From assembly GCF_003324165.1 (NCBI RefSeq), contig NW_025407825.1, positions 771,983-835,982 on the forward strand: a stretch of 64,000 nucleotides of DNA, read 5' to 3'. The notes beneath the pieces are model-generated. The model searched no databases, was not told where the DNA came from, and saw only the letters and a program-made list of their open reading frames with translations. Shown one piece after another: positions 41,484 through 44,342 of the stretch (position 1 is its first letter; each line of letters opens with the position of its first letter). Both the position numbers and the translations under genes were made by a program. Source of the stretch: Naegleria lovaniensis (taxonomy: Eukaryota; Heterolobosea; Eutetramitea; Acrasida; Naegleriidae).

Positions 41484-42253
41484 TCAGTTATTATAATTAG
41501 GTTTCCTAAAAAATGCTCCAAAATAACCATGTTCCATTCTTGCTTGAAATAATGCGTCGCTATACTGTAGAGCAAAACCATTACATTTAAGAGCTTCCAT
41601 AACTAATTCTGGATCGTTCTTCAAAGCATCTTCTGCATAATAAAGAGCAAAGCCATTGTTTTTCACAGCCTCCAACAATATTTCCTTGTCGTTCAAATGC
41701 TCACGAACACCACAGATTTGAATACCATTTAGCTTGACCATTTCCATTACAAATGATTTGTCTGAGCGTAATTCTGGAACTGCATATCGGAGAAGTGGGA
41801 AATGTCCAAACTCGATAATGGCATTCCGTATGACTTCTTTGTCTCTTAATAACTCTGGTGAGGCATATTCAATAGCACCGTTGTAACTTTGGATAGCTGT
41901 CCATACAATTTCTAGATCTCCTCTAAGCTCGTCTGAAACAAAGGCAAAAGCAAAACCGCTATGTTTGATAGCAGTCAATACAACCTCTCTGTCAGCTTTC
42001 ATTCGTGCAGACGCATGATGTATGAAATAACCTTCCCTTGACACTGCACACAAAGTAACTTCTTTGTCATCCTGCAGTTCTTCAGATACATAGCAATAAG
42101 CTCGTGGTCTTGTTCGATCGCCAACAATGCAATTTCCTTGTCATTTCTCAAGTCATCGGATGCAAATTCAAGTATGTTGCCGTTGAAGCCAAAAGAACAA
42201 TTACAGCAATTTCTTTCAAAAACCATCAGTAAAACACAGTCCTGATGACGCAA
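41484..42253 (-). pseudogene. DUF4116-repeat gene, 3' part, frameshifted
   Basis: The clean frame (41484-42053) has at least five DUF4116 repeats of about 50 residues with the pattern DxE(V/I)xxxAI...G.AxxYAS.EL..DKE. Upstream in the same direction the repeat continues in another frame (ILEFASDDLRNDKEIALLAI), which must shift by one base near 42100 to reach SEELQDDKEVTLCAV. A further shift is needed near 42200 to reach KEIAVIVLLA. No GT-AG intron explains these changes. It looks like the broken 3' half of the DUF4116 gene whose 5' half lies at 43728-44342, beyond the Fanzor-like remnant. Confidence 0.75.
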
Positions 42254-42607
42254 GGGTTTATTAATAACCTTGTTTGTTTTGGAGGTTTTGTTTTTTTAAT
42301 CGGTTTTAAATTACTCAGCACTAAAATAAAAGAGAATTTATTACAAACACAACAAGTCATTTTTATCATCAACTGTCAGTTCCTGACGAACCATTTATTC
42401 ATTCTTTGAATCAAAAGTGTTGTTTTGGAGGTGGATAAGGAATTGTCAAGGCGTTCACTTTTCCATGATCAGTTCGGACGAAAAGAATGAATCAAGTTAT
42501 TCAAATTGATAGAGTTTCAATTCAATGAGTCATTCAATACTGATAGAGTTTCAACTCTTGTTGAGGTTATCAAAAAAAAAACTCAACAACAACCTTAATC
42601 TCAACGA
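42254..42607. other. Left flank of the Fanzor remnant
   Basis: 354 bp upstream of the Fanzor start. It contains the direct repeat noted at 42499-42557, and ttgttttggaggt occurs twice (near 42270-42285 and 42420-42432). It probably holds the element's left end and promoter. No gene was recognised. Confidence 0.4.
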
Positions 42608-43599
42608 ATGAAGAGAAGTAGAGAGGATGAACCTACTCATCCTCCTACTAATCCATCTCTTGCACACAGCATCATTCCATTCTGGGATGAGTACTCACAA
42701 CAAGTATCGGATAAGCTTTGGGCATGTGCTAGAGATTCCTTTCATGAGTTTAATCAGTACAACAACAAGGGATGCACTGACGGATGGTTCAACTTTTCTC
42801 AATTCAGTGTGATTGAATCAAAGCCAGTGTTTGATGTTCCACTCAATGTCCATCACTCTATAACAGAGAATGTGGCTTTTGATAACTCTAAAAAGCCACC
42901 TCAGCTCAAGAAAGCAAAAAAGAATCAAAAGGTGGCCCAAAAATTTCAAGCAGACAAATCATTGAAAATCCGACTCTACCCCAATGAACAAGAAAGGACA
43001 ACATTGAATCAGTGGATGGGAACTGCTCGTTGGATCTACAACAGGTGTTTAGAATTTACACACAACTTCAAAGATGTCAAGAAAAATAAGAAGAATTTCA
43101 GAACGTTTGTGGTGAACAACGATAATTATCAGACAGAAAATCAGTGGGTTGTGAATACTCCTTATGACGTAAGAGATGCTGCCGCTATTGAATTGTTGAC
43201 TGCTTTCAACACTAATTTTGAAAAGAAGAAGGCTGGAACGATTGACAAGTTCATGATCCCTTCAGAACTAGAGCTAGCTATAGGTCTATTGCTATGGTGA
43301 CCTTGATCAGTACTCTTACTGGCGGTTGGTTTACTACTATGTGATGGATCCATGTTGTTGGTAGGTAATGATAGACACAAAGATTGCTTCACAAAGCTAG
43401 AGAGCATCCGTGGACACACATTTATATTGTCAACGAAGCGTACACATCCAAAACTTGCTCATGTTGTGGACATGTTTATACAGTTGGATCATCGGAAGTG
43501 TTTCGTTGTCCATCATGTGGCTCAATTTTTGACAGAGATATCAATGGAGCCAGAAATATTCTTCTTCGATTCCTTACTACTCATGGAATTAGTTTTTGA
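42608..43599 (+). pseudogene. Internally deleted Fanzor (eukaryotic TnpB-like) nuclease
   Basis: The first segment (42608-43300, 230 residues) has the N-terminal OrfB/TnpB-type helical domain: SLKIRLYPNEQERTTLNQWM then GTARWIYNRCLEF. After a stop and a frame change, the second segment (about 43375-43599) carries the C-terminal zinc ribbon and last RuvC motif: EAYTSKTCSCCG, FRCPSCG and FDRDINGARNI. In full-length Fanzor/TnpB proteins several hundred bases encoding RuvC-I and RuvC-II lie between these parts; here only about 100 bp remain, with stops. Intact Fanzors are RNA-guided DNA endonucleases; one from Naegleria lovaniensis (NlovFz2) has been characterised. This copy should be catalytically dead. 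Confidence 0.85.
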
Positions 43600-43600
43600 G

Positions 43601-43730
43601 CACCTTGTGTGTTGGGTCTTCCCCACCTTGTGTGCGTTGGGTCCTTTCCCCTGGCTTTCACTCTTTGAGTGTTTGCTTGCAAGATCAGCACTTTGTTCGA
43701 TTTGTTTGTTTTGTTCAAATTGTTGATTTA
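43601..43730 (+). ncRNA. Possible guide-RNA (fRNA/omegaRNA) remnant 3' of the Fanzor
   Basis: Directly after the Fanzor stop the sequence becomes GC-richer and repetitive: caccttgtgtg-ttgggtc-ttcccc (43601-43624) is repeated imperfectly at 43624-43651. A short hairpin cactc-ttt-gagtg follows. In TnpB and Fanzor elements the scaffold RNA is encoded at this place and its guide comes from the DNA just past the right end. Position and composition fit; no family model was applied, so this is tentative. Confidence 0.3.
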
Positions 43731-44342
43731 AATAAAGGCGTCATGTTTCACAGCAGCAAGTACAATTTCACGATCACCCTTAAATTGGTCCTTCACATAA
43801 CGGAGTGATTTTCCATTATGTTGAACTGCTTCCAACACAAACTCTCGATCGTTCTGTAATTCTTGAGAGGCCAACATGATGGTTTCGTAAGCTTGCTTAA
43901 TAGCCGTGAGCACGAATAATTTCTCATTTCGTAATTCGGAAGGAGCATAATGCAATTCTAAGCCACACCGCTGAATTGCTTCCCATAGAACCTCTTTGTC
44001 TTTTTGTAATTCCAATGATACTCTGGGTAAATAAAGAAAATTTTGATCCCGACACTTTTTCAAATGATCCAAGATAAATACTTTGTCGTTCATGAACTCG
44101 ATTGGAATGAAGGATCTATGTTCTAATTCAATGTTCTTTAACCATTTCTTCTTTCCCGATTGTTGTCGTTGAAATTTAATTTTAAGCAAATTCTCCAAAC
44201 TGCAAATCGTAAAGTGAGAAGAATTTGGGTTTTCAAATCGGACGGAATCATCATGGTGAGAAGAAAAATCCATCAATATTATTTGAACACAAGGATGATT
44301 CATGGTGTTGTTGTTATTGTGCAAAAATTCAGTAATCATCAT
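43728..44342 (-). pseudogene. DUF4116-repeat gene, 5' part, truncated
   Basis: 204 residues from a good ATG at 44342. After about 95 residues of N-terminal leader, DUF4116 repeats begin (ELQKDKEVLWEAIQRCGLEL, ELRNEKLFVLTAIKQ, ELQNDREFVLEAVQHNGKSL, KGDREIVLAAVKHDAF) and stop abruptly in the middle of a repeat at the mobile-element border. The same repeat type resumes on the same strand beyond the element. DUF4116 repeats are abundant in amoebae and in giant viruses of amoebae; their function is unknown. It may still be expressed as a short protein. Confidence 0.7.

Follow-up and report, generated by a model that had tools for sequence, protein, structure and literature searches.

The window analyzed here is a 64,000-nucleotide stretch of the Naegleria lovaniensis genome (G000:C4:771983-835982), and all searches of the genome covered 30.69 Mb in 97 contigs. 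In this window, a DUF4116 gene on the minus strand is split by an antisense Fanzor element of 1,556 bp (Table 1). DUF4116 repeats are present on both sides of the element, in one gene. On the 5′ side, the open reading frame (ORF) at 43728-44342 (minus strand) matched PF13475 (Pfam, E=1.8e-47); on the 3′ side, the same profile matched two minus-strand ORFs (41484-42053, E=3e-59; 41999-42253, E=1e-9). These two ORFs are in different frames, which places a frameshift near 42,095 (read from the sequence) that is separate from the element. The host gene therefore appears to carry a second lesion besides the element, and this frameshift may be a sequencing error. A previous sequence-only reading of this locus had described two DUF4116 blocks (5′ block, 43728-44342; 3′ block, 41484-42253) with one break in the repeats coinciding with the element. 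The order and strands of the blocks agree with the PF13475 matches and the repeats do run on across the element. However, the second lesion had been overlooked and the extents were too wide, as 42183-42253 and 43728-43738 are element sequence that happens to be read through by chance.

Table 1. Features of the interrupted DUF4116 gene and of the Fanzor element within it (positions in the window).
Feature	Position	Strand	Remarks
3′ part of interrupted DUF4116 gene	41484..42182	-	Contains a frameshift near 42,095
Target motif CCG at left end	42180..42182	+	CG repeated after right end
Fanzor2 element, internally rearranged	42183..43738	+	1,556 bp; full-length sister in L042 is 2,061 bp
5′ remnant of Fanzor ORF	42608..43300	+	Codons 1-218 of 495, then 12 patch codons
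Patch, 121 bp	43261..43381	+	Replaces 611 bp of Fanzor core (L042 1894-2504)
3′ remnant of Fanzor ORF	43384..43599	+	Zinc ribbon, DRDINGARN
Predicted guide-RNA scaffold	43600..43740	+	Closes GG-CG; from fold and low variation
Predicted guide (host sequence after CCG before insertion)	43741..43760	+	From junction and published guide rules
5′ part of interrupted DUF4116 gene (N-terminal block)	43741..44342	-	Matches N-terminal region of paralogues

On the plus strand, the 5′ remnant of the Fanzor ORF matched HTH_OrfB_IS605 (Pfam, E=6.5e-10) and is 95% identical to codons 1-218 of the full-length copy in locus L042. A search of this N-terminal remnant against PDB gave no match at E 0.001. The 3′ remnant matched the Cas12f1-like_TNB zinc ribbon (PF07282, E=5.5e-18) and is 97% identical to codons 421-495 of the L042 copy; the one TAG within this match (43372-43374, read from the sequence) is inside the patch. 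These Pfam matches and the sequence itself bear out the earlier description of a remnant with an OrfB/TnpB N-terminal domain, a zinc ribbon, and DRDINGARNI.

Compared with the full-length L042 copy, codons 219-420 (RuvC-I/II) are gone from the window copy, as is the DPG motif of RuvC-I. The loss of this core had been proposed from the sequence and holds against the sister copies, but it is not a plain deletion: 611 bp gave way to the patch, which had escaped notice. The patch is 97.5% identical over 121 bp to G000:C17:684837-684957, a place on another contig and the only other match listed for that stretch. At its two joints, patch and element share 2 bp (TT) and 4 bp (CAAA), a pattern that end joining with a copied patch would be expected to leave. 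Among 22 listed internal joints of the element copies (inserts below 200 bp and overlaps below 30 bp), only the patch joint has more than 19 inserted bases; the remaining joints overlap by 0-13 bp or carry 4-19 inserted bases. Since the patch joint is absent from the other listed copies, the event is private to the window copy or to a parent copy that was not found.

Insertion into host genes

When the two flanks of the element are joined at one CG, a minus-strand frame of 263 codons runs through the junction, compared with 213 and 206 codons if the join is shifted by one and two bases, respectively. The joined protein reads IVLAAVKHD-GNILEFASDDLRNDKE at the junction, which falls at residue 203 and lies within the best DUF4116 match of this protein (residues 192-230; profile positions 1-39 of 49). 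As agreement of the frame is expected by chance in one of three cases, it is this domain match that carries the weight. All nine paralogous DUF4116 loci searched with the joined protein (L032-L040) gave matches. In the uninterrupted paralogues L032, L035, and L039, the best match begins at residues 9-17 and continues through the junction to residues 228-232, and it ends at residue 207 in L036 and at residue 202 in L033; the best ranges are listed for these five of the nine loci. The repeats can be aligned in more than one register, so the paralogues support a single empty allele rather than prove it. No empty allele of this gene was found in the searched genome. The insertion of the element into a host repeat gene, as had been suggested before, is thus upheld by a frame restored at one junction, a DUF4116 repeat that is whole across it, and paralogues that align through it.

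A second gene interruption was found for the intact-ORF copy in L042, which lies within a UPF0515-like gene (L042:1-3654). The joined frame has 376 codons, compared with 271 and 200 when shifted, and the UPF0515 match (Pfam, E=1.3e-23, residues 148-363) spans the junction at residue 191. Among 19 copies with both ends that were tested for frame restoration, the DUF4116 site and L042 are clear cases; the others have no clear preference except for L060, which is a weak case (108 codons vs. 61 and 63). That unrelated loci were joined by misassembly is very unlikely. Nothing was found in its favor; the two flanks are parts of a single DUF4116 gene and fit together precisely at the CG, and the termini of the element are those of the family.

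The element family and its ends

The element has 76 matching pieces in the genome. Forty loci were fetched and 39 of these contain sequence of the family, which, to judge from these copies, is interspersed; the exception is L073, the source of the patch, which has no element. Four short left-end places (on C50, C4, C35, and C19) and further partial protein matches (e.g., C40:330838-331173) lie beyond this set of 40 loci. Left ends are detectable in 23 loci, and all 23 begin with CCG followed by TTGAAGCC or TTCAAGCC, with different flanks before them; this is the unbiased count, as the regular expression used in the frame-join test itself contains CCG. For comparison, the frequency of CCG across these loci is 0.36% of positions. 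The base preceding CCG is A in 21 of 24 cases and G in three.

Nearly all copies have TTTAAATAAAGG as their right end. Among the 28 copies located by this motif, the two bases that follow are CG in 23, CA in three, TG in one, and AG in one; in the window copy, this second CG is at 43739-43740. The list of right ends has 31 entries, and L077-L079, with decayed termini, are outside the 28. Two loci, L049 and L066, represent one duplicated insertion (right flanks 95% identical over 702 bp), so the 28 right ends correspond to at most 27 independent insertions. As one of these two has CA and the other CG, the CA is probably a later change. The element has no terminal inverted repeats (5/20 terminal positions match). 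A subterminal imperfect pair (42191-42209 and 43711-43729, 74%) was discounted, as the element contains 39 inverted pairs in all, this one included.

Two further observations concern individual copies. Another copy, L043, has its left flank near G000:C26:408402-408570, less than a few hundred bases from a second DUF4116 match. In addition, a lone left-end fragment (G000:C35:251432-251480) is located ~1.9 kb from L057, a copy without a left end, and the two may be parts of a single copy that a later insertion divided.

The earlier reading had proposed a genome search for full-length copies of the Fanzor, and such copies were found, four of them (L042, L046, L047, and L050) with an intact 495-codon ORF. 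The dN/dS values are 0.128-0.230 in all six pairs, which points to purifying selection on the intact ORFs. The L042 protein (495 aa) matched PF12323 (E=5.4e-10) and PF07282 (E=4.4e-19); its match to PF01385 (E=2e-5, 25.2 bits) is under the cut-off of 30.5. Among PDB entries, the family matched the TnpB-like protein L79 (9b0l; E=6.2e-26), a mimivirus protein. The DPG motif, D300-P301-G302, is the same in three aligned sequences and is described as a Fanzor signature (PMC10711439). Another Fanzor/TnpB-like family, which also has a DPG motif, was observed in 12 places (G000 contigs C2, C5, C11, C28, C34, C38, C45, C46, C55, and C57; L081 and L082), with 38-41% identity to the C-terminal part of the first. 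Two copies of this second family, with 97.9% identity over 1,635 bp, have a common right boundary that ends with AATTTTGTAAAG.

Transposition and comparison with known systems

Elements of the IS607 family exchange over two identical base pairs at a preferred (G)GG and leave the host sequence unduplicated (PMC6188088, Chen et al., 2018). The TnpB of ISXfa1, an IS607 element, recognizes a GGG TAM, and a fixed base after the right end is part of the RNA scaffold (PMC10711439, Yoon et al., 2023). Compared with these descriptions, the Fanzor family resembles IS607 in having no terminal inverted repeats, one dinucleotide common to both ends and the target, a preferred target that equals the TAM, and a fixed base after the right end. 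It differs in having CG rather than GG as the common dinucleotide, and in that TnpA was found neither in the Fanzor loci nor as PF00239 in the genome. The element seems to work like IS607 at its ends, yet we do not file it as an IS607 member.

For the serine recombinase PF00239, the genome gave no match in a search whose control gave matches in 10 of 14 genomes and that ignored introns, such that a spliced gene could escape it. In IMG/VR, a query with a three-row alignment found 28 viral loci with 25-37% identity in the best segment, whereas a single-protein query found none in 26 candidate stretches. A neighboring ORF with a serine-recombinase motif (regular expression) is present at 18 of these 28 loci, several of which are near-identical, and all four of the neighboring ORFs tested by Pfam matched Resolvase. 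These TnpB/Fanzor2 relatives differ in this from the Naegleria family, in whose loci no TnpA was found. We infer that the viral contigs belong to giant viruses. A tree of 23 viral and three Naegleria rows placed the Naegleria sequences weakly and contained one very long row, and a viral origin is not claimed. The absence of a mover in this genome may indicate that it was lost, was overlooked, or is supplied from outside.

Alternatively, an unrelated transposase that duplicates 2 bp of the target may have moved the family, with no IS607-like serine recombinase involved. This explanation would account for the lack of PF00239 matches (introns ignored) and has a precedent in the Fanzor2s reported as captured by cut-and-paste transposons of molluscs and Chloropicon (PMC10711439). 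However, those captured elements have the inverted repeats that are missing here, the target motif of the present family equals the TAM and is on one side only, and 18 of the 28 viral relatives have a neighboring ORF with a serine-recombinase motif (Resolvase in all four tested). We consider this explanation unlikely.

Within N. lovaniensis, Saito et al. (2023) reported that the TAM of NlovFz2 is CCG (PMC10432273). A figure legend of the same paper names Fanzor and ghost loci of this species, and the NlovFz2 loci seemingly have neither inverted repeats nor a clear transposase association (PMC10432273). The family described here likewise comprises Fanzor2s with an N-terminal extension, and this published TAM equals the CCG found at 23 of 23 left ends. 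NlovFz2 may accordingly be a member of this family, an assignment that rests on the TAM and the N-terminal extension, with the sequences themselves uncompared. Beyond the NlovFz2 account as given in that source, the present analysis provides the exact ends, a target rule (CCG/CG), interruptions of two genes, and a copy repaired by a patch. In the literature consulted on Naegleria Fanzors, we found neither the ends nor a rule of insertion at CCG stated for N. lovaniensis. We take to be new the ends of the element, the rule that the CCG target is the TAM, the missing transposase, and the patch repair. Taken by itself, this locus is a decayed representative of a known kind, and we take the novelty to lie in the family-level rule.

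The right end and the fate of the window copy

The right end of the window copy (43590-43729) has a predicted fold of -36.7 kcal/mol (z -3.21). Variation at the two ends was compared in an alignment of 16 of the 39 element loci, 12 of which have a broken ORF. Relative to the majority, 11 of 2,147 sites differ in the right non-coding end (0.51%) and 213 of 6,434 in the left (3.31%), such that the right end is 6.5-fold less variable. The window copy differs from the majority of the 16 at none of 137 sites in the right end and at 11 of 423 in the left. For changes private to single copies, the contrast between the right and left ends is weaker: 8/2,147 vs. 60/6,434 in all 16 copies (p=0.011), 7/1,622 vs. 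43/4,897 in the 12 ORF-broken copies (p=0.099), and 6/801 vs. 26/2,317 in the six internally deleted copies (p=0.42). The low variation of the right end is therefore mostly inherited, and this end was under constraint during the spread of the family. Ongoing selection on it in dead copies was considered and dropped, as the latter two contrasts are not significant.

The genome gave no second exact match to the guide target. With CCG and 17 nt of the predicted guide, 13 places were found within three mismatches, compared with none in a reversed control; the closest place is the right flank of the window copy itself, which has GCG. Two other places (G000:C15:38503-38522 and G000:C25:91988-92007) have two mismatches and keep CCG, and the former is ~340 bp from a DUF4116 match. 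Both are possible secondary guide targets.

The window copy has kept both ends and the predicted guide-RNA end and has lost the nuclease ORF, as is the case for ghost loci. It is probably a non-autonomous ("ghost") Fanzor2 copy that moved in an IS607-like manner, has an RNA end that would be usable with a nuclease supplied in trans, and may be copied into empty alleles by homing. The element would have been moved by an IS607-like exchange of 2 bp at (C)CG. Its intact right end would give rise to an RNA with a scaffold ending in GG-CG, followed by a guide that corresponds to the host sequence after CCG before insertion, with the nuclease provided in trans by full-length sister copies. Such a guide would fit the uninterrupted allele, which has CCG before the guide sequence; the inserted allele has GCG instead, lacks the TAM, and would be spared. 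Repair of a cut empty allele would then copy the element into it. This scheme of guide and self-sparing is drawn from the parallel with the rules of the IS607 TnpB.

It is also possible, with a likelihood slightly short of even, that the copy is simply dead. In that case, it would be an old insertion into a redundant host gene, degraded since then by deletion and patch repair, and its RNA would have no present role. The conserved right end would then reflect constraint on active ancestors or the need of the mover for that end. This account shares its anatomy with the ghost-copy interpretation and differs from it only on present function, so the likelihoods of the two are not additive. It agrees with the broken ORFs in 12 of the 16 aligned copies, with the second lesion in the host gene, and with private right-end changes that are not significantly rarer in ORF-broken copies (for both tests given above). 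On the other hand, the low variation of the right end together with the selection on intact ORFs indicates that the family as a whole was not neutral.

A broader proposal, which we regard as tentative and rather doubtful, is that these elements constitute a eukaryotic, transposase-less, IS607-like Fanzor2 family in which the (C)CG rule equals the TAM. The serine recombinase would come from outside, e.g., from infecting giant viruses, copies would be retained by homing, and gutted copies would serve as guide donors to intact nucleases. If true, guides directed at the genome's own empty sites would be distributed across that genome. As to the benefit of Fanzors to their elements, the NlovFz2 loci as published hinted at a role unlike that of TnpB (PMC10432273), whereas exact ends with a target that equals the TAM favor a TnpB-like holding of the element. 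The exact ends also provide testable pairs of guide and target, one of which lies in a gene with repeats that allow the empty form to be deduced. The window copy illustrates one route by which an element of this sort can lose the nuclease and yet retain the RNA end.
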